The position numbers and the translations under genes are program-made. Shown here piece after piece: positions 4,316-29,559 of a DNA stretch of 29,895 nucleotides. This DNA is from a virus, in IMG/VR virus record IMGVR_UViG_3300037246_000142, positions 1 to 29,895 of that record, one strand, 5' to 3'. Every line of letters starts with the position of its first letter. Position 1 is the first letter of the stretch. Under the pieces are notes generated by a model. That model had not been told where the DNA came from and ran no database searches. It saw only the letters and a list, made by a program, of their open reading frames with translations.

Positions 4316-5287
4316 TTAGTTTATTTTTTTAAATTCAACATCAACCTTAGAATAGTCAACGCCATCAAATTCTCCAGCAAAGTTCTTAACTACAGCTTCG
4401 CTTGAAACCTCATCTGACATAACACCTTGCCAAGTACCTTCACCAAATATTTTGTCTATATATTCAAAAGCGTATATGTTTAGTCCACTTTTTGATTTAC
4501 CTATAAGTTTTATATTTTTCTTTATACGTCTATCAGAGCTCATTGTAGGGCCTCCCATTGCAGCTCCAGCTACACTTCCAGCTATAGAACCAATACCTGA
4601 GAATATCCCTGCTGTTGCGGCGCTTCTGTTTGATCTAGCTTGAGCTTCTCTTTGAGCAGCCCCAGTCTCTTTAGCAATGTTGTAAGATATATCTGAATTT
4701 GTTCTATCTTCTTGTGCGTTGAACTGAAATATGTTTCCAGCAGCTTCAGCTTGTTGCTCTCTCTGTCCTTCAGATATAGCTATAGACTGTAGTCTTTGTT
4801 GCTCTGCAGTTTGTCTTTCTTGTAGGTTTTGTTCACCCTGTGCTCTAAGTTTTTCATTAGCAGCTTCTTGTTGTTCAATACCAGCAGCAACTCCTTTCTT
4901 ACTTCTTAAAGCAGCCTGTGCTAATGCGGTTGCACCACCAGCGCCAGCTCCAGTGGCCATCATAGCATCAAGTGAATTAGCTAAAGCTATATCACTTTGT
5001 TCCATTTGTATTTCAGCCGCCTGTGTAGCTACACCTAAACTAGAATAAGGATTAGACATTTGCCCAGACAGATCAGATGCTAAGTTAGCTAGTGATGTTA
5101 CACCTCCATAAGGGTTTGTTATAGTCTGTCTACTATTTTGTAGAGACTCTACCTTTGCTGCTGCTCTACCTTTTTCGCCTCTAGCTCGTCGCATGTTTTT
5201 ATGCTCTGCACCGGACTGTATTGCGCCACCTACTGCTGTCGCTGCTACCGCTACACTTCCCGCTACTATTGCTGTTGCTAATGCCAT
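4316..5287 (-). CDS. Internal virion-like protein with C-terminal S74 chaperone domain
   Basis: A protein of 323 residues. Residues 1-25 are strongly hydrophobic and Ala/Val-rich. Residues 85-225 are Ala/Gln/Glu-rich and helical. Residues 223-246 form a second Gly/Ala hydrophobic stretch. This resembles the architecture of T7 gp14-like internal proteins. Residues 250-320 match the intramolecular chaperone auto-processing (peptidase S74) signature. Residues 251-256 read SDRRIK, placing Ser and Lys at the catalytic dyad spacing (SDxRxK). Downstream are IYAFEYI, a Gly-rich turn with MSDEV, and VDYSKV. In known proteins this domain helps trimerise fibres and cuts itself off. The domain call is fairly secure; the internal virion role of the rest is inferred. 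Here the domain is short and sits at the extreme C-terminus. Confidence 0.8.
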   Translation of the reverse strand: MALATAIVAGSVAVAATAVGGAIQSGAEHKNMRRARGEKGRAAAKVESLQNSRQTITNPYGGVTSLANLASDLSGQMSNPYSSLGVATQAAEIQMEQSDIALANSLDAMMATGAGAGGATALAQAALRSKKGVAAGIEQQEAANEKLRAQGEQNLQERQTAEQQRLQSIAISEGQREQQAEAAGNIFQFNAQEDRTNSDISYNIAKETGAAQREAQARSNRSAATAGIFSGIGSIAGSVAGAAMGGPTMSSDRRIKKNIKLIGKSKSGLNIYAFEYIDKIFGEGTWQGVMSDEVSSEAVVKNFAGEFDGVDYSKVDVEFKKIN

Positions 5288-5288
5288 G

Positions 5289-5696
5289 TTAAATGTTTTT
5301 AATTAATTCGTATGATGGACTTTCGTCTACTGTCCACCCTAATTTTTTATGAGTATTTATCAAATGTTTGTTTCTCCCGATACTAAACATATGTTTCTTA
5401 CCTGCTAATCTACAAGTCTCTTCAGCTGTAGATATTAATATTTCTAATGCTTCTTTTCTATCTTGCTCTCTATATTCTGGATTTGAAACTATCCACTCAA
5501 GCAACACGCCATCTGAGTTTGTGAAATATAAAAACCCAGCTACGATAGGTGTATTTTCTTTGTACACCATCAAGCCTCCAGTACCGTTGTCTGGTAAAAA
5601 ACTTTTTGGTGGATTAACCCATTTAGGCCAAGAATCCCACCATTTAACTAAAGTATCCCAATCAGTCTCCTCTAGTTTTCTAACTTCTAATTTCAT
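5289..5696 (-). CDS. GNAT-like N-acetyltransferase
   Basis: A 135-residue protein with the length and strand/helix order of a compact GNAT fold. Residues 1-20 (EVRKLEETDWDTLVKWW) resemble the first strand and helix. Residues 50-59 (PIVAGFLYFT) and 63-71 (GVLLEWIVS) are the central strands. Residues 72-97 hold the acetyl-CoA pyrophosphate loop region and following helix. Residues 108-121 (GRNKHLINTHKKLGW) resemble the late GNAT signature in which N..H.KLGW precedes the last strand. The classical Q/RxxGxG/A loop is degenerate here (YREQDRKEA). It lies between nozzle-like and internal virion genes, with one base before the next gene. The substrate cannot be read from the sequence; it may modify a virion or host protein. 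Confidence 0.7.
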   Translation of the reverse strand: MKLEVRKLEETDWDTLVKWWDSWPKWVNPPKSFLPDNGTGGLMVYKENTPIVAGFLYFTNSDGVLLEWIVSNPEYREQDRKEALEILISTAEETCRLAGKKHMFSIGRNKHLINTHKKLGWTVDESPSYELIKNI

Positions 5697-5711: not shown

Positions 5712-7229
5712 TTAACTACTTATACTAAAGTTTGAGTTAACTGCAAATAATTCTTTTGCTCCTCCAGGGTTAGTGTAGTCGTCGTTTTCTATTACCACTG
5801 TACAATAGTATCCTTTTATACCAGTCATTTGATCTCCAAACCTAACTTCACCCGCTGTTGGCTCTGAGTCGTTTACTAGGTTTGCATAATACTTATTTTC
5901 TTTTCTTGTAAAACCAGCATATAATCTATTATAAGGAGGGTCGTCACTTCCAAACACAGCTGTGTAGTCTGGTCTATAAACAGGTGTACCAAATGTTGCG
6001 CTTGCCACTCTAGGATCTATTATATATTCACCTTCGTAGTAACTATATATGCCATTTGTTGTATCTCTAGTCTCAGGTGGTAACAACCATTGAGGTACAT
6101 TAGAGCCATTCACCTCTATGCTATCAACACCTGTTATGTCTGACACATAAGATTTTACTTCCCAACCATTGCTACCTTCGTAGTCCACGGTTTTAAATAC
6201 CTTGCTTCTGCTTACATCAGGATTAACTATGAATACTATATTTGATTTATATTCACCACCATAAAAACTAGCTCTATTTACACTAGGATCATTATGTATC
6301 CAAACACCTTGACCTCTTGTATCTACGCTATAAAATCTATTAGCTAAGCTAAACATCCATCTTGGTTGGTAACTATAAAAAGAAGGCCAACCTAATACTC
6401 TTTCATCAAACTGCAAGGTGCTGTATGGTGGTAGTGCTGTGTTAGATTCGGACTTTTGTAGTGAAACTGTGTATTGTTTTGTATATATATCCCAGCCACC
6501 TACTATCTTACCATCGCCAAATCCTGATGAATCTACAGTGCTTAGGTTGTCTCTAAACCAATCAATCATACCATAGTTAGAAATTTCTGTAATACCATCT
6601 CTAGACAGCCTTAAAACAGCATTTCTATTTTTGTCTACAAAGTATTTTCTATATCCATATACAGCAAAGCTTTCTGGATTATCTGCTATACCAAAATTAC
6701 CTGCATAAGGAATTATTTGGCCAATAACTAAATTCAATTGACTAATAGGTACACCGCCACCTTCAGCTGTGTATATAGCGTCTTTATCTATTAAAGCTCT
6801 ACTAACTTTCTTCTCTGAAAATATAATTAAATTTGTATCTTCAGCGTATAGTCTTTGTATACTACCATCTGACGGGTCCGTTGCTTTGGTTATTTCTGCT
6901 GCTACAGAGAATTGATTAGTTTGGTTAATACCTGTTCTAGAGTTAAATATACCCGAGTATATCATAGCGTTACCTCTAATACTTCCTTGCGGTTCGTCTT
7001 CAACTAAATAAGCTTTAGCACCTAGAGAAATAGAGGTATTATTATAACCACCTCTAATTCTTGATTCTTCTATTGCCCAGTTAAGTGGTGTGTCAGCTAG
7101 ATCAGTAGGGTCAAAACCACCTACAGATGTAGGTATACCTGTTGATCCAAACCATTGAGGTTGATCAGCAGTATCTAAACTCTTTTTTAAGATAAAGGAA
7201 TTGAAATATTTTACTTCTATTAATGCCAT
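5712..7229 (-). CDS. Tail nozzle / stabilisation protein, second component
   Basis: A 505-residue beta-rich protein, poor in charged helices, with many Tyr, Gly, Asn and Ser residues. It begins with EVKYFNSFILKK and contains NWAIEESRIRGGYNNTSI, AEDTNLIIFSE, GYRKYFVDKNRNAVLRLSRD and ISNYGMIDWFRDNL. I recognise these elements from proteins paired with P22 gp10/T7 gp12-like nozzle proteins in marine podoviruses; the last reads like a repeated propeller blade. It follows the 1578-residue protein by only 34 bp. The two probably build one structure, the distal tube or nozzle of a short tail. The family link comes from memory of similar phage proteins and needs a profile search. No catalytic motif is visible. 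Confidence 0.7.
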   Translation of the reverse strand: MALIEVKYFNSFILKKSLDTADQPQWFGSTGIPTSVGGFDPTDLADTPLNWAIEESRIRGGYNNTSISLGAKAYLVEDEPQGSIRGNAMIYSGIFNSRTGINQTNQFSVAAEITKATDPSDGSIQRLYAEDTNLIIFSEKKVSRALIDKDAIYTAEGGGVPISQLNLVIGQIIPYAGNFGIADNPESFAVYGYRKYFVDKNRNAVLRLSRDGITEISNYGMIDWFRDNLSTVDSSGFGDGKIVGGWDIYTKQYTVSLQKSESNTALPPYSTLQFDERVLGWPSFYSYQPRWMFSLANRFYSVDTRGQGVWIHNDPSVNRASFYGGEYKSNIVFIVNPDVSRSKVFKTVDYEGSNGWEVKSYVSDITGVDSIEVNGSNVPQWLLPPETRDTTNGIYSYYEGEYIIDPRVASATFGTPVYRPDYTAVFGSDDPPYNRLYAGFTRKENKYYANLVNDSEPTAGEVRFGDQMTGIKGYYCTVVIENDDYTNPGGAKELFAVNSNFSISS

Positions 7230-7263
7230 TATATATTAGATTACATGTTCTATGGTTACTTTA

Positions 7264-10200
7264 CTAACCAACTTTACCTATAGATGTACCCATTTGTTTT
7301 GTACCTGTGCTAGCTTCCATTATACAAGCCCAAACTCTTTTATCTTGAAAGGTGTTTGGAGTTGCGTTAGGTGACCCAGCTCCTTCCGCGGACTGAGCGT
7401 TTGGTTGATTTGTTTTGCTAGTTACTCCCGCGTTGAAAGGTGGCGTACTACCAGGAACGCCAGTATTACCATCAAAAGATCTATAAGAAATATATCCAGG
7501 ATTACCACCAACACTAAGGTCCCAAGCTATAAATGGCACTGTTAAAGCTGCGTCTGAGTAAAATGTACTAACATATCTATGCACTGGCTCTAACGCATAT
7601 AATACTTTGTACCTAGGACCTACCGTACCAAAGTTATTATTTAAAGCTTGGCTTTTTCCTGAGGAAGTGTTTGGGAAAGTCTTTGTGTCAACTAAGTAAG
7701 CAAATGCTCTTTGTGGCCCAAGATCATAAAAGAAATCACCAAACTCAATTTCACCTACTTCAAAAGTAACTACCGGAAATGGTTGAGTCGCTGGATCTCT
7801 CCAACAACCTACACAGGCATCTTCAAATGAGCTATCTTGACCGCCTATTGTTTGTATTACAACTCTATACTCTCCAAAACAAGGCGTTGCTCCATACGTA
7901 GGACTGTTCCCTACAGCAACCCATTTTGCTAAAACAGTTTCACTCGCACTAGTAGAAATACTAGCTCTATTTCTAGCTATTAATTGATACGTATTAGGGT
8001 TTGGAGCTGGTATAATAGCAGAGCTTACCGGCGCATTGTTGCCAGCTGCTCCGTAAACCTGATCCTGTATGTATGAAGTACTAGATTGTGGTTGAGACCA
8101 CGACACTGGCTCGTTTGTGCCACCGTTAGAGTCAGCATCTAACACCTTACCAGATTGCTGTGGATCTGTTTGATTACCAGACACACCGCTATTCCAAGAT
8201 AGAATATTACCCTCTATATCTGTTGCTGCTTGCCAAGGTGATACACTTGTAGGTCTATATTCTATCGCCCAAGAAAAATTACAAGACGCCCATTGATTAA
8301 AAACTGAACCACTTCGTTGACCTGTTAATCTTAAGAACACCGCCACATACCCTGTACCTTGAGTCAAAGGACCTTCTAAAGCGCCACTTCCGGTGGGTTG
8401 CTGAAGTATTAGACTATTTGGTCCACCTCCTGTAGCTGGATATCCACCACAAACAGAGTTCGAAAACGAATCATTTAATGCAGTGCCAGCTGGAATATTG
8501 CCTGGGTCTGGGTAGGTATATTTGAATGTTGTGCTCGCTGAACCACCATTACTGTTAGGAATCTGAGCATATGCATTTGAAGGACTATTATGTAAGTTGT
8601 ATATAAAACCAAAGTCAATTGGTAAATTATTATTTCCTGCAGTATTAAAATAGCTACTATTATTGAAAGATCCATTTGCTGTTGGAACACCTATTACTAT
8701 AGATATATTTATAGTTTGAAAAGTTCCATATGCGGATACTCGTATTTTAAGATCATGTTGACCTCGAGCTACTCCAAAGCTTGTTTCTGTAACTTCACCT
8801 GTAGCTGAGTCTATTTGAAAAGCTGTAGAAGGAAGTCCTGCTTTCGTCTGTACTGGTATGTCCCAAAACAAACTATTTTGGTTTTGACTAGGTGATAAGA
8901 GCGCGACGTTACTTCCGTTTGAACCATATAATTTTAGAGGAATACCAGCGTATCCAACCTGAATAACAACCTGTCCAGGAGGACCTCCCGCTGGTAGTGG
9001 TTGTTGACCGTAATCAATAGGTGTATTGGTAGTTTGACCCCACGATGTGTTGACATAACCTGGTGTTGTTATTAAAGTTTCACCACCTACTTGAACAGTT
9101 GGAACATCATCTAAGTTAGTACCATCTTGCGTACTAGTAAGTGTAAACGTTTTTATTGGTATTGGTGGAGGATTTGGATTATCTAAATCTTTGACGCTTA
9201 CAACTAAAGTAAACTGAGTAGCTGGTATGTCAGCGCTGTCGTATACGTAAAATGCTTTGTTAACTAATATAAATGTATCGTGAGTATAAGTAGTTGTTGT
9301 AGCCCCAGTAAAGTCTATGTAGTTACCTATTCCAGCTGGAGTAGATCCTGTTCCTTTTATTCTTAATATATCAAAGTCACTAGTAACTATTGCATTGTTT
9401 CCGTCTTTTACGCTAAAGCTATCAAGCTCTACGTTTTGTATAGGAGTATTAGTGTTATCGTCAAACCAAAAAGGACCCATAACAACAGATCTGTATCTTC
9501 CGTATTCAGCATTGTCAGGTCCTATTACTGGAGTAGCTGGTGATGGCCCTGGTTCAGGTGAAGCGTTTAAAGCTGTTTCACTCCATGGAGATGACGACGC
9601 TGTTTGCTTGTTGAAATATTCGTTTAAAAACCAAGAATCATTAATTATTCCAAATATAGTTTGACCACCTGTAGCTATCACTTGCTCGTTTAAATCATCA
9701 ATTGTACCACTAGAACTAGTCTCCCAGTATATGTCTAGTCTTGATTCTACAGGTTCTGTCTCATATACAGCTAAGTTTTGTATAGTGTAAGTTAAACCAC
9801 CTGATGTAGGGTCTATTTGACCAAACTGATCTGTAGTACTTACTCTACCTATTAAAGGATTTGAGTCTGCTTCATAAAAAGCCTCTTGATACTCTGGATC
9901 TAAAGCAGTCCCAGGATCTAGATTAAACATATCAAACTCGTTTGAAATAGTAGACACCGTGTCTGAGAATCTAGAAGGATAATATTGTTGGTTTACTACC
10001 CCATAATCTGTAGGTATTCCACCGGCTGCAGCATCTGGGGTTGGAGACTGATCAGTATTTTCTACTCTACCAAATAACTGAACAGAGCTTCTAAATTGTT
10101 TTTGATCAGGACCTACTTGTGACAAATCTCTAGGCACTTTATTTATATTGTCATTTAATAAAACAATATGCGATGTTAAACCAAGTTCTAACTCATCATC

Positions 10201-12000
10201 TTCTGGGTAAGCTGTTATGGAACCAGGTAGATAAACATTATAATAGTCTTGCTCTTGTTGCTTAACAACTACCTTCCAAGATTTAAAACCTAGTGGATTA
10301 TAAAGAGGGTCTGCTGGATCACCGTTGTAAGTGCCTGGGTATAAAGTAGATGCCACAGGTGTTTCACTTATAGTATCGTTAACCTGTATTAACAACGTGT
10401 CTCCAGGCCATAAACCAACATCTACAAGATTGTCATTGTAAGGTGAGTATACAGTAGACAAGGAACTAGCTGTAGCAGAACTAGCAACATCTCCAGTATT
10501 TGATAATAGCGTAGATGTTGTTCTACCAAATTTATCTGAAAATACAAAACCAGCTTGATAATTTCTATTTTGTTTTAATGTACTACTAGGATATTCAATT
10601 ATACTAGTATTCCATGAAACAGGTGTTGCCGGTGTTGTTATGTCAAAAGGTTGTTTTGGACCTGTACCTACATTGTAGTTTAATCCACTTGGAGGCGTGT
10701 GTCTAGTTTGAAAATTACCATAAACAACTCTATTGCTTATAATTTCCTGGCTTAAAGCCTTAACAGGAACCTTATCGTAAACTCTAGTTAATTGACTTTC
10801 AGGTAAAGTTCTAAAAGGTTTTGTACCAGAGTATTTATATTGATATATATTGTTAGTTGGGTTTGACGAGCTGAACTGATCTTTTATATCAGCAGCAGGA
10901 ATAGTGTCTACAACTAGTACAGCTGCGCCATCAGACTCTTTAAATAGTATTTCTATTTCTGTTATTTTAAAATAACTACTAACATTAAATAAGTTTGTGG
11001 TACCAAGAGCTGGATCACCAACCACTGGCATTTCAATTAAAAGAGTTAATTGATTAACCTTGTTCTCCATGAATTCTACTATAGTACTTCTGTAGGCGGC
11101 AGACATATCATTGTCATCTCTATCTGTTCCAGATGGGTTAAAAAGAAAATAACCATCTTGCTGAGGTATAAAACACTCTTGAGTAAATGGAGCAAATACA
11201 GAGTATTCACCGTCGTCAAACTTAAATCTATAACTGAATCTTACGAACTTGTCTTCTAAGTAGTTAGGATCACCCCTATACACAACATCTTCATAAGGAT
11301 TGTCAGTAGTGCCGTCTGGTAAAAAAGGACTAACAACGTCTTGCATTGTAGTTTGATAATCACCTAGCGCAGGCTGTAGCCTTGTAGGATCACCACTTTC
11401 GTCTATAACTTCTTGAGTTACTTCTTGCCATAAAACAGGAGCGGTAAATGGCATTACTTTAGCTACACTAATAGTATCTTCTATTGCATAGTAATCGAAA
11501 CCTAGTGTAAGAGGTGGTATTATTTCAGCTAAATCAACATTTATTTTTCTTGGTTGATTTCTATTATCTGTCCAGAATAGTAACTCTTCAAGTAGATTAA
11601 CACCGTATATCGGGTATAATGTAGAGAAGTTTAAAAAAGCACCTCGCACTAATATCTCATTTTGAGTGATAGTTCCTTGAGAAACAATAGATCTTACTAT
11701 GTAATTTTCCGCAAGAGGATCATACCCTTCAGATTCATTATCTGTTAAAAAGAAGTAAAAGCAAGAATTAACCTCTGATACTAAGTATCCTATACACTGT
11801 ATATCGGTGTTGCTAGTTATATCTGTAAAATCAATAAATTCAGAGTTTCCTAAAACATTCTCTAATGCTCCTACGTCTTCTGCTTCTGATTTACTAACCT
11901 GTATATTTTCTGCATCTCTATACTCACCTTGTGGTAACAAGCGATCATCAAGATCCTTGTTCATTTTAGATTTTATAAAAAGATTTTTAAAGATTGCCAT
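7264..12000 (-). CDS. Giant tail nozzle / 'muzzle'-like stabilisation protein
   Basis: The largest complete gene in the window, 1578 residues. Residues 12-52 contain KMNKDLDDRLLPQGEYRDAENIQ followed by DVGALENVLGN. This is the hallmark start of the phage stabilisation/nozzle family (P22 gp10, T7 gp12-like, crAss-like muzzle). A beta-rich domain runs to about residue 650, with FTDNRNQPRKINVDL-type propeller elements. The region from about 750 to 1130 is Thr/Ser/Pro/Gly-rich and looks like consecutive Ig-like beta-sandwiches. The C-terminal 450 residues are also beta-rich and low in Lys, and I do not recognise them. P22 gp10 is about 470 and T7 gp12 about 790 residues, so this version is greatly enlarged, probably by surface-exposed modules that could touch the host. 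A small hairpin (7253-7270) lies over its stop codon. Confidence 0.75.
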   Translation of the reverse strand: MAIFKNLFIKSKMNKDLDDRLLPQGEYRDAENIQVSKSEAEDVGALENVLGNSEFIDFTDITSNTDIQCIGYLVSEVNSCFYFFLTDNESEGYDPLAENYIVRSIVSQGTITQNEILVRGAFLNFSTLYPIYGVNLLEELLFWTDNRNQPRKINVDLAEIIPPLTLGFDYYAIEDTISVAKVMPFTAPVLWQEVTQEVIDESGDPTRLQPALGDYQTTMQDVVSPFLPDGTTDNPYEDVVYRGDPNYLEDKFVRFSYRFKFDDGEYSVFAPFTQECFIPQQDGYFLFNPSGTDRDDNDMSAAYRSTIVEFMENKVNQLTLLIEMPVVGDPALGTTNLFNVSSYFKITEIEILFKESDGAAVLVVDTIPAADIKDQFSSSNPTNNIYQYKYSGTKPFRTLPESQLTRVYDKVPVKALSQEIISNRVVYGNFQTRHTPPSGLNYNVGTGPKQPFDITTPATPVSWNTSIIEYPSSTLKQNRNYQAGFVFSDKFGRTTSTLLSNTGDVASSATASSLSTVYSPYNDNLVDVGLWPGDTLLIQVNDTISETPVASTLYPGTYNGDPADPLYNPLGFKSWKVVVKQQEQDYYNVYLPGSITAYPEDDELELGLTSHIVLLNDNINKVPRDLSQVGPDQKQFRSSVQLFGRVENTDQSPTPDAAAGGIPTDYGVVNQQYYPSRFSDTVSTISNEFDMFNLDPGTALDPEYQEAFYEADSNPLIGRVSTTDQFGQIDPTSGGLTYTIQNLAVYETEPVESRLDIYWETSSSGTIDDLNEQVIATGGQTIFGIINDSWFLNEYFNKQTASSSPWSETALNASPEPGPSPATPVIGPDNAEYGRYRSVVMGPFWFDDNTNTPIQNVELDSFSVKDGNNAIVTSDFDILRIKGTGSTPAGIGNYIDFTGATTTTYTHDTFILVNKAFYVYDSADIPATQFTLVVSVKDLDNPNPPPIPIKTFTLTSTQDGTNLDDVPTVQVGGETLITTPGYVNTSWGQTTNTPIDYGQQPLPAGGPPGQVVIQVGYAGIPLKLYGSNGSNVALLSPSQNQNSLFWDIPVQTKAGLPSTAFQIDSATGEVTETSFGVARGQHDLKIRVSAYGTFQTINISIVIGVPTANGSFNNSSYFNTAGNNNLPIDFGFIYNLHNSPSNAYAQIPNSNGGSASTTFKYTYPDPGNIPAGTALNDSFSNSVCGGYPATGGGPNSLILQQPTGSGALEGPLTQGTGYVAVFLRLTGQRSGSVFNQWASCNFSWAIEYRPTSVSPWQAATDIEGNILSWNSGVSGNQTDPQQSGKVLDADSNGGTNEPVSWSQPQSSTSYIQDQVYGAAGNNAPVSSAIIPAPNPNTYQLIARNRASISTSASETVLAKWVAVGNSPTYGATPCFGEYRVVIQTIGGQDSSFEDACVGCWRDPATQPFPVVTFEVGEIEFGDFFYDLGPQRAFAYLVDTKTFPNTSSGKSQALNNNFGTVGPRYKVLYALEPVHRYVSTFYSDAALTVPFIAWDLSVGGNPGYISYRSFDGNTGVPGSTPPFNAGVTSKTNQPNAQSAEGAGSPNATPNTFQDKRVWACIMEASTGTKQMGTSIGKVG

Positions 12001-12006
12001 ACTATT

Positions 12007-13215
12007 CTAGTGTTTGATCCATTTAGATTTACCTCTCATAACTTGAACTATTTCACCAAGCTTTATGTTAGATAATCTTATTTTAGTATTTCTTAATTTA
12101 GAGCTAGCTTCTCTCTTCAATCTGTTTATTATGTACTCAGGTTGATTTATTCTACTAGCTAATACAGCGTGTGATAGGTATGCGTATATAGCGGCTTCAG
12201 CTAATTTAGGTACTCTACTATCCATGTCATATGCTAGTCCATCAGATATGTATTCTAGTATTATAAGCTTGCCAACAAGATTGCTTGAAAAAGATATTTT
12301 ACCTTCTCTGTCGTTCATATTAAACCACCCGTTTACTTGAGAGTATTGTGGATCTATTCCATATAATTGACCATAACCTAAATTCCACATTCCGCCGTAA
12401 CCCCAATCAAATCCAGCCCAGTCTACACTAGCATTAAATTCTCCTTCTAAAATACCTTGACTATTGCTCTTCCATCTTTCCTCTGTTATCGATGTCCCTT
12501 CTATATTCTCGCCAAAATTATCTTGAGTCGGTACACCTTCAGAATCCTGCAGCGGAGTGCTATAAGGAGAATTAGTTAGATTATTTGCTGGGTATATAAT
12601 TCTTTGTACACCAGCTTGATCTATCCAAGACATACGCACGTAATTTACATAGTCTTGTGGTATAACCACGCTTAGGTTAGGTGGTATTGTTAGCTCTTGA
12701 GATTTTATACTTTTAAGAGTATCATAGCTAAACTCTTGCAAAGCTCTCTTAGCATGAAATATTAAGTCTGTTCTTTTAACGCTTGGTATTAATTTACCAG
12801 CTCCAACATAAGCAACTATAAAGTTGTTAACAACATCACCTAGCGTTACATATTCATAACTACCATAGTTTTGTTCTGTGGTAATTCCATAAGCGTCTCT
12901 ATCCCCGTAGCTACCACCATCGAGCCTCTTTAATTGGCAAACCAATACGTGGCCTTGTGGTAGTGCAGTTATCAAAGAAACAGTGTTACCAGCCACAGTA
13001 TATGGAGCTACATATTCCACATAGTTTACACCATTAAAACTAGAGTATAATTTAAAATTATTTTTCTGGTAGTCTACTTGAGAAGGATCAAAGTTTCCAA
13101 ATTCTAGATTTGTATCAAAGGTAAAAGTAAAATTGCTTTGCCCTGAAGGATCTTCAACTACAAAGCCTTGAGCTCCTGCGTAATATTGTTGATTAGTTTC
13201 GTTTATAACTCCCAT
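12007..13215 (-). CDS. Tail tubular / ring protein (T7 gp11-like)
   Basis: A 402-residue protein. Residues 1-120 are beta-rich (DPSQVDYQKNNFKLYSS, YTVAGNTVSL), resembling a small adaptor domain for fibre binding. Residues 125-210 contain DVVNNFIVAYVGAGKLIP and AKRALQEFSYDTLKS, then IPQDYVNYVRMSWIDQAGVQR. These are typical of gatekeeper/tail tubular A-like ring proteins of short-tailed phages as I remember them. The C-terminal 70 residues are helical and basic (INRLKREASSKLRNTKIRLSNIKLGE), as expected for a ring packed against a portal or adaptor. The next gene, the giant nozzle-like protein, starts six bases past its stop. The role is inferred from motif memory plus gene order. Confidence 0.75.
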   Translation of the reverse strand: MGVINETNQQYYAGAQGFVVEDPSGQSNFTFTFDTNLEFGNFDPSQVDYQKNNFKLYSSFNGVNYVEYVAPYTVAGNTVSLITALPQGHVLVCQLKRLDGGSYGDRDAYGITTEQNYGSYEYVTLGDVVNNFIVAYVGAGKLIPSVKRTDLIFHAKRALQEFSYDTLKSIKSQELTIPPNLSVVIPQDYVNYVRMSWIDQAGVQRIIYPANNLTNSPYSTPLQDSEGVPTQDNFGENIEGTSITEERWKSNSQGILEGEFNASVDWAGFDWGYGGMWNLGYGQLYGIDPQYSQVNGWFNMNDREGKISFSSNLVGKLIILEYISDGLAYDMDSRVPKLAEAAIYAYLSHAVLASRINQPEYIINRLKREASSKLRNTKIRLSNIKLGEIVQVMRGKSKWIKH

Positions 13216-22321: not shown

Positions 22322-22593
22322 TACTTAGATCTTCCTTCTGCAAAACCTTTAAAGTTCTTTTCTTTAACTTCTTTTGGCTTGTTGTTTAATAAATCCTCTT
22401 CTTCTTGAATACGTTGCAATATTTCAAAAGCATCGAATATAGCTAGCTTTTTAGTAGCTGCTGCGTTTTTTAATCTATCAGCTGTTATATCGTCTCCTGA
22501 ATCAACAATAGCCTCTTTAGCTACCTTTATTAATTCTTCAACTGCTACCTGCCCAGCTTGGATTATATTCTTCTTCGTCTTCTTTATATCCAT
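22321..22593 (-). CDS. TerL-adjacent small protein, possible small terminase
   Basis: A 90-residue helical protein. Residues 10-30 (NIIQAGQVAVEELIKVAKEA) and 37-65 (ITADRLKNAAATKKLAIFDA, then FEILQRIQEEED) form two likely amphipathic helices, and the tail is basic (KEKNFKGFAEGRSK). Its first 56 bases overlap the end of the tandem GroES-like gene, and its stop shares one base with the terL start, so the two are translationally coupled. Genes immediately before terL are commonly small terminase subunits. The size is small and no clear helix-turn-helix can be assigned, so the function remains an inference from position. Confidence 0.55.
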   Translation of the reverse strand: MDIKKTKKNIIQAGQVAVEELIKVAKEAIVDSGDDITADRLKNAAATKKLAIFDAFEILQRIQEEEDLLNNKPKEVKEKNFKGFAEGRSK

Positions 22594-23143
22594 GTTCTAA
22601 TAAAATATCATTTGATTTCATACAATACAAACGTTCTCCGTCTATATTAAACTCCCATTCAGACCCAGCTTTAAACGTCACTATATGTCCTGGAGTTATT
22701 CCTAGCTCTTCTAAGGAGCTATTACCTATTTTTAGTATACCAATATTATTTACCTCTATATTGTTTGTTAGAAGCTCTCTATCTTTAATTGGCATTATGA
22801 AACAACGATCGTTGATCGATTTCCATATATGTGATCTCTTGTATAAATAAACTTGATCAACACTAGCAAAGTATAGGTCGTCTTTAAAATAAGACCTACT
22901 GTTTGTTTGCTTACCTTGCATGTTATAAAATCTTCTAAATACATTTTGGTGTATCACAACTATATCACCCTGTTTAACAGGCGTTGCGATAGCGAGAGGA
23001 GTAGATACTACTTCAGCAAATCTATTTACAAATTTCCAGGCTTCTATTTTAGTATTTAAAACTAATTCTCCACCTTCAACTTTTTTTGTGTTCGCGTATC
23101 TTTCACCTATCGGCTTAACGATAAAATCGTAAACACTCCTCAT
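22538..23143 (-). CDS. Tandem GroES-like protein (double co-chaperonin fold)
   Basis: A 201-residue protein that aligns by eye with two GroES units. Unit one (residues 5-101) has YDFIVKPIG for the first GroES strand, EGGELVLN like the mobile-loop GGIVL, VKQGDIVVIHQN for the VKVGDIVIF turn, and LYFASVDQVYLY for the last strand (EVLIMSESDILAI). Unit two (111-184) has DRCFIMPI, NNIGILKIGN, ITPGHIVTF, then IDGERLYCMKSNDILLE. It ends with an acidic tail EEYNPSWAGSS. Unit two has no clear mobile loop, so it may not bind a chaperonin in the usual way. I recall similar proteins in marine phages annotated as GroES. It overlaps the next gene by 56 bp and abuts the 75-residue gene. It is separate from the canonical GroES at 27771-28031. 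Confidence 0.7.
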   Translation of the reverse strand: MRSVYDFIVKPIGERYANTKKVEGGELVLNTKIEAWKFVNRFAEVVSTPLAIATPVKQGDIVVIHQNVFRRFYNMQGKQTNSRSYFKDDLYFASVDQVYLYKRSHIWKSINDRCFIMPIKDRELLTNNIEVNNIGILKIGNSSLEELGITPGHIVTFKAGSEWEFNIDGERLYCMKSNDILLEHGYKEDEEEYNPSWAGSS

Positions 23144-24922: not shown

Positions 24923-25255
24923 TTATTTCTTTGCTTTTATCTCGTTAGCGTAAGCTGGTCCTTCCCAAGGCCCAGTTCCTTTAGCGAAATGTTCTTTTGA
25001 ATATGTTTTACCTTTATAGTAAATTTGTTTTTCATCCCAATCAAAACCTTCGTGCTTCATTTGATTCACGTGAGTTTGCTCGTGAGAATGGGTTTCTGTT
25101 TTCATAGAAGGAGATAAATCTTCTTCCATTATTATCACACCATTTTTTAAGGTTCTACCTACGGCTGGATCACCAGACATATCTCTTTCATACACTGGTG
25201 TAACACTTGTAGCATAAGGTGGTTCTATAGTAAACTTACTTTTTAAAGGAATCAT
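24923..25255 (-). CDS. Small HExxH zincin-like protein
   Basis: A 110-residue protein starting MIPLKSKFTIEPPYATS. I chose the ATG at 25255 because the longer in-frame start at 25342 would lie inside the 56-codon gene. Residues 58-62 read HEQTH, a zinc-peptidase HExxH motif in a helix context (THSHEQTHVNQMKHEG). A third ligand is likely Glu98 (GPWEGPAY) or Glu105 (ANEIK), the usual HExxH...E gluzincin order at a short distance. There is no signal peptide. With only 110 residues it is a minimal metallopeptidase fold or a non-catalytic derivative. Lying next to holin-like and virion genes, it could process a virion protein or help lysis. The motif is seen directly; activity is inferred. Confidence 0.65.
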   Translation of the reverse strand: MIPLKSKFTIEPPYATSVTPVYERDMSGDPAVGRTLKNGVIIMEEDLSPSMKTETHSHEQTHVNQMKHEGFDWDEKQIYYKGKTYSKEHFAKGTGPWEGPAYANEIKAKK

Positions 25256-25406
25256 TTCTATAAGGAAATTTATTATTAAACCATTCTTGCCTATTGTTAC
25301 AACCACAATTGATATTAAGCCCGTCGGAGACAATGTCAACAACGTGCTTAATACCTGTTTTTTGTGTGAAATTAGCTATGCTATCACCTAGCCCTTTGGA
25401 TCTCAT
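25236..25406 (-). CDS. Short CGC-motif protein (56 aa)
   Basis: A 56-codon gene starting ATG AGA directly after the TAG of the upstream gene. It reads MRSKGLGDSIANFTQKTGIK, then a hinge VVDIVSDGLNIN, then CGC NNRQEWFNNKFPY. The start KSKGLGD.I, the TGIK, and the C-terminal CGC..R...N..FPY are the hallmarks of a tiny protein family I have seen in many marine and large phages, probably metal-binding through its two Cys. It overlaps the zincin-like gene by 20 bp in another frame, arguing for translational coupling. Function is unknown. It is likely to be missed by ordinary length cut-offs. Confidence 0.75.
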   Translation of the reverse strand: MRSKGLGDSIANFTQKTGIKHVVDIVSDGLNINCGCNNRQEWFNNKFPYRNDSFKK

Positions 25407-26315: not shown

Positions 26316-26603
26316 TTATTTTATAGCTATTAGATCGGTAGCTGTTGTGCTAGTTGCCATAATGTAGTCTATAACTACAGGTAAAAAACTACCTGATTGA
26401 ACATTTTTAAAAATTACAGAATCTGATATTGTTGGTGGCGATCCGTCAGGTCGCGTTTCTCCTGTTAATATAACTCTTATATCTCCTCCTGTACCAACAT
26501 ATAGCACAGATCCATTATAAGAAACATTTGGACTTATAGTGTCTGTTGATTGTGCAGATTCCGCTTTAGTAGCGAAGTCTGGTTGATTTGCGTATTGTCC
26601 CAT
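26316..26603 (-). CDS. Small virion surface / decoration-like protein
   Basis: A 95-residue protein, beginning MGQYANQPDFATKAESAQ. Its core SVLYVGTGGDIRVILTGE is followed by VIFKNVQSGSFLPVVIDYIM and ends ATSTTATDLIAIK. This combination (YVGTGGD, FKNV.SGSFLPV, TTATD) is familiar from small proteins in structural clusters of marine phages, sometimes assigned as minor capsid or spike base proteins. That is memory, not a search. It is probably a beta-sandwich. It has an A/T leader TAATAAATAAAAT. It is a good candidate for a minor virion component; the exact site is unknown. Confidence 0.6.
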   Translation of the reverse strand: MGQYANQPDFATKAESAQSTDTISPNVSYNGSVLYVGTGGDIRVILTGETRPDGSPPTISDSVIFKNVQSGSFLPVVIDYIMATSTTATDLIAIK

Positions 26604-27327: not shown

Positions 27328-27774
27328 TTATCTATTTTTATCTCTATTGACATTATACACGGATGTTTGTAATACCTTATCCATGTATGTTTTACCTTGC
27401 ATTATAGAGTTTCTTCTTTCGCTTGTTGGAATATCTTCGTCACCAATCATTATTCTGTAAATTCTCCTTATAAGTTGTTTACCTTTAAAAGAAACTTTAT
27501 ATATGTTATATTTTTGGGTTGTTCTATTTCTTTTTCTCCAAACAGTTATCCAGTCTTCTTGAATAAGTTTATTCCATCTTCTGTTGTTCCAGCTAAAAGA
27601 ATAACTCCCCATTTTAAAATCATCGATTGTAAACATATCTATACAATCTAAATATATAAGTAATTCTATTTCAGCATCAGTTAAGCCGTTGTTTCTGCAG
27701 GCCCATTTACGTATAGTACGGTAATGTTTTAGCAGATTGAGATCTTTTAAATCTCCTGCTTCCAGCCTTTTCAT
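27328..27774 (-). CDS. Winged-helix-like DNA-binding protein, coupled to groES
   Basis: A 148-residue protein. Residues 31-42 (LTDAEIELLIYL) look like the second helix of a MarR/PadR-type domain. FTIDDF (48-53) and RRWNKLIQEDWITVW (65-79) fit the third helix with its following strand, residues 80-96 the wing, and FKGKQLIRRIYRIM (96-109) a dimerising helix. The C-terminal 40 residues are basic. The start overlaps the GroES stop by four bases (ATGA), so it is translationally coupled to the chaperonin genes. It could regulate late transcription or the chaperonin operon, or bind DNA in the virion. The fold is inferred from pattern, not from a search. Confidence 0.6.
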   Translation of the reverse strand: MKRLEAGDLKDLNLLKHYRTIRKWACRNNGLTDAEIELLIYLDCIDMFTIDDFKMGSYSFSWNNRRWNKLIQEDWITVWRKRNRTTQKYNIYKVSFKGKQLIRRIYRIMIGDEDIPTSERRNSIMQGKTYMDKVLQTSVYNVNRDKNR

Positions 27775-28031
27775 ATTACAACGACAATATCCTGAACTTT
27801 TATTACTTGTAGTTTTTCACCATCATGCTCTATATTGTGACCAGCATGTTTGTCATAAAATATATGATCATTCTTTTTTAGAAATGATTGATCTCCTGGA
27901 TCTATTACTTCTGCTTGAACGTATCTAATATCATCTCTATCGTTTTCAGATAACAACAAACCTCCTTCGGTTTTAGTTGTTTTCTTTTCTAGCTTATTAA
28001 CTAGTAAATAACTACCTACTGCTTTCATCAA
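27771..28031 (-). CDS. groES: GroES co-chaperonin
   Basis: An 86-residue co-chaperonin lid, near the usual 90-97. Residues 3-12 (KAVGSYLLVN) form the first strand. Residues 15-35 are the mobile loop, whose GGLLL at 23-27 stands for the GGIVL that binds GroEL. Residues 38-45 (VQAEVIDP) and 52-60 follow, with KNDHIFYDKHAGHNIEHDGE resembling the Bacteroidota type (GDKVLYGKYAG.....DGE). The end LQVIKVQDIVVVI is the canonical last strand. The first 20 bases overlap the end of groEL in another frame, and its stop overlaps the next start. In bacteria groES precedes groEL; here the order is reversed. It should form the ring cap for the encoded GroEL. Confidence 0.9.
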   Translation of the reverse strand: MMKAVGSYLLVNKLEKKTTKTEGGLLLSENDRDDIRYVQAEVIDPGDQSFLKKNDHIFYDKHAGHNIEHDGEKLQVIKVQDIVVVI

Positions 28032-29559
28032 TTCTAATATTATTAATTACACAATCAGTTGATAGTATTGTTGTTGCTACTGAAGCCGCGTTTTTTAAAG
28101 CGCTCTTTGTAACGAGCAGAGGATCTATAATACCAGCTTTAATCATATTTACCATATTACCTGTAACCACATTTATTCCTTCACCTTTCTTATTAGGTTC
28201 ATCAACCTCAAGACCGGCGTTTTTCAAAATTGTTTTGTATGGTGCTTTTATTGCTTTTCTTAATATACTTTCTCCAGGTATTTTTTTGTCTAAAACCTTA
28301 GAAGCATTCAACAAAGCAATACCACCACCTGGTACTATACCTTCTTTTATCGCGGCTCTTGTAGCACATATAGCATCTTCTACTCTATCTTGTTTCTCTT
28401 TCAACTCTATAGCTGAATTAGCTCCTACCTTAACTACTGCTACTTTAGCGCTTAGTCTTGCTAGTCTTTGCTCTAAACCTACTCTAACATGTTCTTTATT
28501 AGTCTCTAGTAATTTAGATCGTATCTGGTTTATTATAGCCTCAACTTCTTCTGAATCCTTTTCAACTCTAATTATTGACTTGTCTTTTTCTGTAACAACT
28601 TTAATACATTGTCCTAGATAGTTTACCTCTATAGAACTTAGATCATCACCTAAGTCTTCGTTAACAACGGTAGCTCCTGTTAGTAATGCTAAGTCGTCTA
28701 GTATTTCTTTACGTCTCAATCCGTATGCAGGTGGATCTAACACGTTTATCTTTATATTACCTTTCATTTTATTCATAAGTAACGCAGACATAACATTTGC
28801 TTCTACTTCACCTATGATCAATAAAGGTTCTTTTGTTTTTATAACATGCTCTAATACTGGCTGTATCTGTCTTATTGAATCAACTTTAGAATCTATAAGT
28901 AGAACTAAAGGATTGTCTAGCTCTGCTGTACCTGTATCTTTGTTTGTTATGAAGTTAGGGTTTAGTAGCCCTTTGTTATACTCAACACCTTCAACAACTT
29001 CAACACTTGTGTCTCCTTCAGCTGATGGCTCCATAACTACCAAGCCTGCATCTCCTACTTTTTTAAATGCATCCGCGATAATAGAACCTAAAGCTTTATC
29101 ATTGTTCGTGGATATAATAGCTATGTCGTCTATCTTATCTTTAACTGGTACAGATTGTTTCTCTAGTTCTTTTATGATTATATCTACACCATTTAGTATT
29201 TGTTCCTTTACAGCTCTAACATCTTTATTGTCTAGCTTGTAAGATTCATCTAGTATAGCGTGGGCCAAGATAGTGGCTGTAGTAGTACCATCACCGGCTT
29301 CTTTTACTGTCTTGCGAGCTGCTTCTTTTAAAAGCGTGGCCCCTATGTTTTCTACTGGATCTCTAAGAAATATAGCATCTGCAACTGTAACACCGTCTTT
29401 TGTTATAAGCGGCTTACCTCCTGCGTCTTCCAGTATAACACATTTACCGCTAGCCCCAAGTGTGGAGCTAACAGCTTTTGTGAGTTTTTCTATTCCTTTA
29501 AATATTTGGTTCCTAGCCTCGTCCCCGAAGTTAAGATTCTTTACTATAGCATCTGCCAT
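28012..29559 (-). CDS. groEL: GroEL chaperonin
   Basis: A full chaperonin subunit of 515 residues (bacterial GroEL is about 545). The ATP-binding residues are intact: Asp55 in KDGVTVA, Asp90 in GDGTTTAT and Asp395 in RVEDAICATRAA, followed by VPGGG. The apical domain (about 188-370) has KGLLNPNF at 196-203 where E. coli has RGYLSPYF. Tyr199 is therefore replaced by Leu and Tyr203 by Asn; Leu234 is replaced by Gln in RQIQPVLE. Leu237, Phe204 and the hydrophobic pair at 263-264 are kept as hydrophobic. The C-terminal Gly-Gly-Met tail is absent (ends IRIDESSR). Leader TAAATTAAATTAAATC has no Shine-Dalgarno. It is followed by overlapping groES. Its likely role is folding phage virion proteins together with GroES. 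Confidence 0.95.
   Translation of the reverse strand: MADAIVKNLNFGDEARNQIFKGIEKLTKAVSSTLGASGKCVILEDAGGKPLITKDGVTVADAIFLRDPVENIGATLLKEAARKTVKEAGDGTTTATILAHAILDESYKLDNKDVRAVKEQILNGVDIIIKELEKQSVPVKDKIDDIAIISTNNDKALGSIIADAFKKVGDAGLVVMEPSAEGDTSVEVVEGVEYNKGLLNPNFITNKDTGTAELDNPLVLLIDSKVDSIRQIQPVLEHVIKTKEPLLIIGEVEANVMSALLMNKMKGNIKINVLDPPAYGLRRKEILDDLALLTGATVVNEDLGDDLSSIEVNYLGQCIKVVTEKDKSIIRVEKDSEEVEAIINQIRSKLLETNKEHVRVGLEQRLARLSAKVAVVKVGANSAIELKEKQDRVEDAICATRAAIKEGIVPGGGIALLNASKVLDKKIPGESILRKAIKAPYKTILKNAGLEVDEPNKKGEGINVVTGNMVNMIKAGIIDPLLVTKSALKNAASVATTILSTDCVINNIRIDESSR

Follow-up and report, generated by a model that had tools for sequence, protein, structure and literature searches.

Two adjacent open reading frames (ORFs) of 1578 and 505 amino acids lie on the minus strand of the viral record IMGVR_UViG_3300037246_000142 from IMG/VR (29,895 bases, analysed as a whole and called the window below), and the locus raises the question of whether they encode two proteins or two parts of one tail nozzle, and of what the long extension of the first part may be for. 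This marine phage seems to be a relative of the gut crAss-phages that makes its tail nozzle, or muzzle, from two genes, with the break at the place where a long exchangeable arm is attached, so that the nozzle itself may choose the host. We consider it probable that the two ORFs encode a two-chain muzzle of the crassvirus type carrying an exchangeable receptor-binding tip.

Identity of the two open reading frames

The two ORFs and their conserved parts are as follows.
7264-12000, minus strand: N-terminal piece of the muzzle (N-piece), 1578 amino acids, conserved core plus C-terminal module (Pfam, PHROG)
5712-7229, minus strand: C-terminal piece of the muzzle (C-piece), 505 amino acids (Pfam, PHROG, profile comparison, structure search)
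9685-12000, minus strand: conserved muzzle core, N-piece residues 1-772, aligned in 99 relative N-pieces
6114-7073, minus strand: conserved C-piece core, residues 53-372 (family matches, profile, structure search)

The N-piece matched the Pfam family crAss_MUZ (PF25731) with 43.7 bits over residues 13-158, and the C-piece matched crAss_MUZ_C (PF25729) with 41.2 bits, the cut-off being 27 for both. Both also matched phrog_14478, the N-piece at positions 2-180 (the best of three stretches) and the C-piece at positions 923-1237, and since the C-piece takes up later positions of the family matched by the N-piece, it is the second part of the same protein. In profile-profile comparison with gp44, the muzzle of crAss001, N-piece residues 12-179 corresponded to gp44 residues 12-167 and C-piece residues 116-366 to gp44 residues 1057-1292; N-piece residues 1-685 aligned with residues 1-512 of the fused muzzle of Cellulophaga phage phi38:1. 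The best fold matches of the C-piece AlphaFold2 model (48 sequences) were likewise to the crAss001 muzzle (7qol_P with Z 14.9, 341 residues and root-mean-square deviation (rmsd) 5.7; 7qok_A with Z 14.5, 292 residues and rmsd 3.5). GP4 came third (Z 12.0), and the nozzles of GP4, Pa223, SU10, P22 and T7 all ranked behind the crAss001 muzzle, with VIA Z values of 8.0 for T7 gp12 and 9.2 for P22 gp10. A phmmer search with the two pieces as queries brought up no relative among PDB sequences (three chance matches, E 0.6), and an NCBIfam scan gave nothing useful. The N-piece gene was found directly after a ring-type protein gene and downstream of the genes for the portal and the major capsid protein (MCP).

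Judged from sequence, the two ORFs are one crassvirus-type muzzle, its N part and its C part. The domain names used here within the pieces were inferred from gp44, and the C-piece core presumably comprises the end of blade 3, the later propeller blades and the muzzle C-terminal domain. The initial annotation had given the positions and lengths of both ORFs, which the ORF list confirmed, and had regarded the 505-residue protein as a second part of the same structure, which agrees with the PF25729 match, the later phrog_14478 positions and the crAss001 muzzle fold. Its description of a gp10/gp12-like protein two to three times the size of the T7 or P22 versions holds for the oversize nozzle but not for the yardstick, which is the crassvirus muzzle: the combined length of the two pieces is 2083 amino acids, about 1.5 times that of gp44 (1371 amino acids).

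Position of the break

The break was located by two strands that flank it.
9700-9774, minus strand: anchor strand before the break, N-piece residues 743-767 (LAVYETEP...LDIYWETSSSGTI), recognised by eye in 99 of 99 relatives
7188-7217, minus strand: restart strand EVKYFNSFIL, C-piece residues 5-14, from a by-eye alignment, equivalent to LDWFNAWSFGNGVES of the fused muzzle of Tenacibaculum phage Gundel
7230-7263, minus strand: gap of 34 bases between the ORFs, whose frames differ, read from the sequence

In the Gundel muzzle the counterpart of the anchor strand is LIIFETEPNDSLPEIFYEIGRTYEI (residues 884-908), and the majority consensus of the restart strand in the alignment of relatives is IEVKYFNSF. 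Six muzzles are intact at this place, those of phi38:1, Flavobacterium phage elemoF, Gundel, Panino, phi18:3 and the Manatee Spring phage, and in these the loop from anchor to restart is, by eye, 19-27 residues long, in comparison to the window, where about 810 residues are followed by a stop and, 34 bases later, by a new ATG. The N-piece of the window ends with TAG followed by TAA, and an in-frame TAA starts 9 bases ahead of the C-piece ATG. The anchor was kept by all 99 aligned relatives and followed in them by 246-943 further residues, the alignment having been made from 102 distinct N-piece ORFs after three were dropped (two L142 fragments and L163; loci are numbered with L). The break point, placed by eye, falls at about gp44 residues 956-966, inside the G-H insertion (residues 940-1012), which according to sections of PMC10172136 is part of the distal 'crass' domain built on IG2. 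With its position read by eye and by profile, the break would cut through a single domain, and the two chains should need to fold together.

Distribution of the break among relatives

Loci were collected by likeness to the two pieces of the window and to two other muzzles, with at most 80 per search, and the proportions below are therefore no estimate of prevalence. Of the 263 loci sorted, 140 were broken at the site seen in the window (a redundant count, in which the record of the window itself and two frameshift cases, L142 and L163, are included) and 46 at a second site; 13 were initially filed as fused, of which six (L185, L188, L194, L206, L210 and L234), each with a separate C-terminal ORF, were re-filed as second-site, leaving seven. 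The others were partial (5, among them L212 of the second clade), ran off the contig end (41), had otherwise incomplete evidence (13), or were gut-type or phi14:2-type loci missed by the profiles (5).

The break at the window's site is clade-wide. A 93-row tree of the N core had 58 rows labelled as broken here, of which 56 formed one branch, the outliers being the frameshift cases L163 and L212; rows with fewer than 200 of 446 columns (crAss001, DAC15, phi14:2, L166, L262) and near-duplicates were left out, and the seven changes counted on this tree over all three groups are inflated by the six loci first filed as fused. In a 50-row tree of the N and C cores, made from a random sample plus named rows and leaving out L212 and L252, all 23 sampled rows with the window's break fell in one branch with support of 100/100. 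The split proposed in the initial annotation stands as a split into two genes, with the break lying in one loop throughout the clade.

Panino (L163) and L212 were rejected as examples of a break at a domain border, as both look like frameshifts inside the core, and L142, whose N-piece lies in two overlapping ORFs, was set aside. In Maribacter phage Panino (L163, 6402-10313) a mid-core frameshift splits the muzzle into overlapping ORFs, which may be a sequencing slip or a genuine break.

The C-terminal arm

The part of the N-piece beyond the anchor, cut at residue 773, was divided as follows.
7267-9684, minus strand: module after the anchor, residues 773-1578, 806 amino acids (246-943 in relatives), from the alignment
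8686-9669, minus strand: two predicted tandem cadherin/immunoglobulin (Ig)-like domains, residues 778-1105, presumed stalk (AlphaFold2, Foldseek, VIA)
7267-8685, minus strand: distal part, residues 1106-1578, presumed exchangeable tip (identity profiles, linkage, fourfold sites)

The AlphaFold2 model of residues 379-1578 (72 sequences, predicted local distance difference test (pLDDT) 75) contained two tandem cadherin-type beta-sandwiches at residues 778-1105. Foldseek with this model returned 104 PDB matches at E <=0.001, with cadherin-type structures making up 47 of the best 50 and a best E of 1e-5. With VIA, Z was 8.6-10.0 among the matches listed, moderately above the background stated for the tool, with an rmsd of about 9 for the pair; residues 962-1105 matched cadherin-23 EC1 (2wbx; Z 8.9, rmsd 2.7, 98 residues) and residues 968-1105 a SusE-like structure (4ak1; Z 8.9, rmsd 2.5, 91 residues). 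A search for the crass fold with the same model gave mostly cadherin-type matches, and a single domain can fill such a list. BFVD returned 21 matches at E <=0.001, most of them without a name, as well as one to a crAss-like 'stabilization protein' at E 1.2e-3. Pfam recognised no domain in the window's own module, and in 82 modules searched at E 0.01 it found Cadherin in three, RibLong in three, Big_9 in two and PKD-type models in one each, such a match being helpful but not defining for a cadherin/Ig-like fold.

The two parts of the arm behave differently among 100 N-pieces, near-identical rows included: the first 330 residues link 98 of them into one set, and the last 220 residues fall into 11 unlinked sets (61, 25, 4, 3 and seven singles). 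Nothing like the Ig pair was found at the break place in the six relatives with the muzzle intact there. The Ig-like middle that had been suspected at about residues 750-1130 is matched by the predicted pair at 778-1105. The gain and loss of modules suggested along with it is not seen within the clade, where the first 330 arm residues are homologous in 98 of 100, but the six intact relatives lack the Ig part at this place. As for a variable part, it is the distal end (about 1106-1578) that changes fast and not the Ig middle, which is conserved in the clade; and the opposite possibility, that the middle and C-terminal parts are fixed parts of the family core, is true of the proximal arm within the clade but not of the distal part with its 11 unlinked sets, nor of the six intact relatives, which have neither at this place.

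Four loci of the window's clade have a separate ORF of 252-303 amino acids between the muzzle pieces (L056:11187-12083, L059:11378-12160, L061:11198-11953 and L065:11187-12095); these ORFs have no Pfam match and are unlinked at E 1e-5 to the in-between family of the second clade described below. The muzzle also appears to have a second variable spot, at the place of gp44 IG1 (gp44 residues 163-292), which corresponds to N-piece residues 190-233 (window 11302-11433) and is short in the window; of 99 relatives, 30 have 59-103 extra residues after residue 191 and 52 have 45-117 after residue 233.

Exchange of the distal part

Identity profiles of close pairs run at about 80-100% until a switch point, mostly at 40-70% over the rest of the ORF, and at 85-96% in the C-piece. 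In several close pairs the distal part is down to about 50-62% identity, in comparison to 85-96% for core and C-piece. Among the 100 rows compared, less eight without a complete C-piece, the identity of the last 200 residues was lower than that of both core and C-piece by at least 0.10 in 9 of 22 pairs with core identity of 0.90-0.99, 24 of 39 with 0.80-0.90 and 99 of 104 with 0.70-0.80. In L043/L046, with a core identity of 0.91, the modules were 0.64 identical and differed in length (482 vs 349 amino acids).

At fourfold degenerate sites the distal part was below both core and C-piece in six of eight chosen pairs, as would be expected after recombination with a diverged donor and not from selection on amino acids alone. 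For L007/L010 the values were 0.81 in the core, 0.54 in the distal part and 0.87 in the C-piece. For L114/L119 they were 0.70 in the core, 0.96 in the module and 0.94 in the C-piece, a pattern that we read as exchange with a border near the module start, and L043/L045 went in the same direction but more weakly (core 0.53, module 0.66, C-piece 0.60). These comparisons point to recombination of the distal part in several close pairs. A reverse transcriptase (PF00078) was found in none of 27 records, all classed as linear and possibly fragments, in comparison to three of 14 genomes in the positive control, and a role of the distal part as the target of a diversity-generating retroelement is thus unsupported.

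The second break site

Podovirus ctfjg026 with its clade, and also phi18:3, have the muzzle broken at a different position, which is intact in the window.
6420-6446, minus strand: position of the second-clade and phi18:3 break, about C-piece residues 262-270, from profile comparison

At this site the N-piece retains about 200 more core residues and the C-piece restarts at about profile position 270, which is about 230 residues beyond the first site as counted in the fused Gundel muzzle, in the propeller part. In 46 loci of the second group (a redundant count) a separate ORF lies between the pieces, and these ORFs form one single-linkage BLAST family of 47 ORFs, all but one of them 184-561 amino acids long; we call this family adhesin-like from what we take to be a likeness to fibre domains. 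Its domain is fused to the C-terminus of ten N-pieces, including gp114 of phi18:3 (E 4.5e-18), and L240 has both arrangements. In addition, a Big_9 Ig domain (E 2.7e-20) was found in phi18:3 gp114, which is matched by cadherin models too. Nine separate ORFs and six arms sampled from the second clade gave no Pfam match, a seventh arm, that of phi18:3, giving the Big_9 and cadherin matches. The annotations of gp114 and gp115 both rest on tandem mass spectrometry (MS/MS) of virions. On the 50-row tree two changes are needed for the second site, with phi18:3 on a long branch, and either one origin or two are possible.

Proposed function and alternative explanations

In the arrangement that we propose, the N-piece would supply the ring-joining start, the first propeller blades and, as far as one of its strands, the Ig/crass region; it would then continue as a free C-terminal arm with the conserved cadherin/Ig-like pair as its stalk and the variable part as its tip. 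The C-piece would restart at the next strand, complete the Ig/crass domain and the remaining blades and end in the muzzle C-terminal domain, and the pieces would have to pair during folding, as the break cuts through a domain, and would be paired in the virion, presumably in six copies. A surface loop of the tail-tip domain, once opened in this way, could carry a long arm on a chain end, where the arm may be swapped by recombination via homologous flanks with the gate undisturbed, and as the chain would not need to return to the core, both exchange and growth could be eased. The crassvirus muzzle closes the tail, and its distal domain is proposed, in parts of PMC10172136 and PMC10136315, to sense the cell by contact and to open the gate. 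The arm would be the first part to reach the host surface, and could by this contact set off the opening proposed for the crass domain in crAss001. In the window's clade the presumed cell-contact domain bears, on an Ig-like stalk, the muzzle's longest and most exchanged part. We take the arm as the receptor-binding part, and most likely it binds the host surface.

Several observations weigh against this reading. The tip drop was smaller than 0.10 in 13 of the 22 closest pairs, and exchange would therefore be intermittent; the eight pairs used for fourfold sites had been picked for their profile; and in L007/L010 silent sites are low (0.56) already in the proximal module. In L043/L045 the modules have a protein identity of 0.94 with fourfold sites at only 0.66, and this apparent swap may be old or may reflect amino-acid conservation. 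The downstream ORFs diverge too (44% identity in L007/L010, 65% in L114/L119), the next large ORFs matching over 38 and 108 residues only. The C-piece model is weak (pLDDT 59, and under 50 across most of residues 1-171), Pfam and NCBIfam scans recognised no receptor- or carbohydrate-binding family in the window tip, the MS/MS evidence from phi18:3 bears on the second break site and not on that of the window, and four loci of the same clade have an additional ORF at the site, so that the arm could act as a holder for another protein.

The break could be only apparent if frameshifting, stop read-through or a recoded stop gave one long protein, and recoding of TGA as Trp in some crAss-like phages is described in sections of PMC12386605. 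Frames at the junction are compatible with this in 8 of 100 distinct relative junctions (excluding the window's record, L163, L212, L142 and pieces off the contig end), five with a single in-frame stop and three with the C-piece frame open into the N-piece by a short overlap, but all eight have a TAA stop and, no more than about 8 codons into the C-piece frame, a Met. In the other 92 the C-piece frame is shut off, by lying in another, closed frame (63) or by further intervening stops (29), and there are therefore two genes; in the window itself the frames differ, and the TAG, the following TAA and the in-frame TAA ahead of the ATG argue the same way. Coding by one gene, usual for this family but not defining and lacking in phi18:3 as well, was thus not found here, and we reject a single long protein for most members and hold it to be highly improbable overall. 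Ordinary length variation of crassvirus muzzles, combined with a break that was a neutral accident fixed once, accords with the insertions in crass and IG2 domains by which the family varies in length according to parts of PMC10172136, but the break was retained throughout the clade sampled, and another clade has its break at a different loop, also beside a large variable addition, which speaks for an advantage of breaking; we regard this explanation as decidedly unlikely. A purely structural extension, serving as a brace of the tail tip or as a dock for separate fibres or an accessory adhesin without itself touching the receptor, would suit the conserved proximal Ig pair and also the ORFs that lie separately between the muzzle pieces, both in the second group and in four loci of the window's clade, but suits less well a distal end that is the most exchanged part in several pairs and an extra domain fused to the arm in phi18:3 and nine other second-group N-pieces, and it seems unlikely to us.

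A wider statement can be made tentatively, and we consider it possible without favouring it: that the muzzle gene of aquatic flavophages was broken at least twice, in two loops, each time next to an Ig- or adhesin-like addition, and that the free chain end serves as an exchangeable receptor-binding organ that replaces tail fibres or stands beside them. A two-chain muzzle would also be a naturally occurring split protein with a central part in genome ejection. The part of the muzzle that sees the receptor is left unsettled in the available sections of PMC10172136, and a series of tip exchanges with a near-identical gate points to the sensing part; the tip sequence could also help to predict the hosts of uncultured marine flavophages.

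Gene order, likely host and other features of the window

The minus-strand order in the window is terminase, portal, a scaffold-like ORF (our own label), an MCP-like virion protein, a further ORF, two ring-type virion proteins, and then the 1578- and 505-amino-acid ORFs, identical to the order in phi38:1. crAss001 likewise has the genes for its portal, major head protein, ring proteins and muzzle in succession, with other genes interspersed. The ring-type protein next to the muzzle is listed below.
12007-13215, minus strand: ring-type virion protein (phrog_13977, PHROG match), adjoining the muzzle in the order of phi38:1

The family match of this protein begins at residue 112, leaving an N-terminal extension of about 110 residues, and the phi38:1 equivalent has 283 amino acids. 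We took the extension to resemble the N-terminus of the T7 gp17 fibre, for which Pfam gave no support, with nothing over the cut-off in the window and five relatives and one sub-threshold BclA_C match (E 0.013) in L029.

Among the matches listed, the nearest annotated terminase is that of ctfjg026 (64%), followed by those of the elemo flavophages (about 45%) and Cellulophaga phages (about 37%); these are flavophages with records filed outside the order Crassvirales. A DNA similarity search of the window against phage records found no match. Seven C-piece relatives lie in binned genomes, four of them (three distinct bins) in Bacteroidetes/Flavobacteriaceae bins and one each in Crocinitomicaceae, Ilumatobacteraceae and Woesearchaeota. 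We read the host as a member of the Bacteroidota and the Ilumatobacteraceae and Woesearchaeota contigs as misbinned.

Other minus-strand features were noted in the window.
4316-5287: Ala/Gln-rich virion protein (phrog_6121, head and packaging) whose C-terminal SSDRRIKKNIK... resembles the S74 endosialidase chaperone domain (Pfam sub-threshold, E 0.12), odd for an apparently internal virion protein
5289-5696: 135-amino-acid ORF immediately after the C-piece, GNAT acetyltransferase-like by inspection, in which Pfam finds nothing; in L167 the ORF in the matching slot has the annotation N-terminal acetyltransferase complex subunit
22538-23143: GroES-like protein of 201 amino acids (phrog_13932 co-chaperonin, E 6.6e-23)
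24923-25342: 139-amino-acid ORF with a zinc-peptidase-like HEQTH motif and a weak DUF6782 match (E 0.056)
26316-26603: 95-amino-acid ORF, weakly matched by a PHROG tail fibre family (phrog_12296, E 1e-3), in a 29.9-kb fragment in which the initial annotation had seen no separate tail fibre gene
27771-28031: second GroES-like gene, 86 amino acids, adjoining a GroEL-like ORF at 28012-29559 (both by inspection)

Comparison with known systems

Among the open-licence PubMed Central matches listed, the scope of the search leaving subscription papers outside, there was no report of a two-gene muzzle, of two break sites or of a domain that is either fused or separate, and none of these was found in the available parts of PMC12386605, PMC11054128 and PMC8776804. 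The closest characterised counterpart is crAss001 gp44 (PDB 7QOK/7QOL), which belongs to the same family at both ends (PF25731, PF25729), is encoded after a ring-protein gene and is the top fold match of the C-piece; its tail-tip region is described in parts of PMC10172136 as having Ig-like domains and as varying in length. It is a single chain of 1371 amino acids, in comparison to two chains, 2083 amino acids and an arm of about 800 in the window. The muzzles of phi38:1, elemoF and Gundel have the same core as that of the window, and phi38:1 and elemoF the same gene order, but each is one ORF (1324-1493 amino acids) with a short loop at the break point. The T7 gp12 and P22 gp10 nozzles have the ring-joining and propeller fold in common with the window but are much shorter single chains (789 and 471 residues) without a sequence match to it. 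To our knowledge, neither has an Ig stalk or a tip module.

The muzzle of ctfjg026 (Manatee Spring, MW202828) and its clade is broken as in the window, but at the second site, and mostly has an extra ORF between the pieces, which in ctfjg026 is annotated as 'putative glycosidase' and has no Pfam match. In Cellulophaga phage phi18:3 (Pachyviridae) the muzzle is, as in the window, encoded in two genes, gp114 and gp115, and the upstream piece has an Ig-like domain, ending in Big_9 followed by the domain common to the extra ORFs of the second clade; it differs from the window in being broken about 230 residues further on, in the propeller part.

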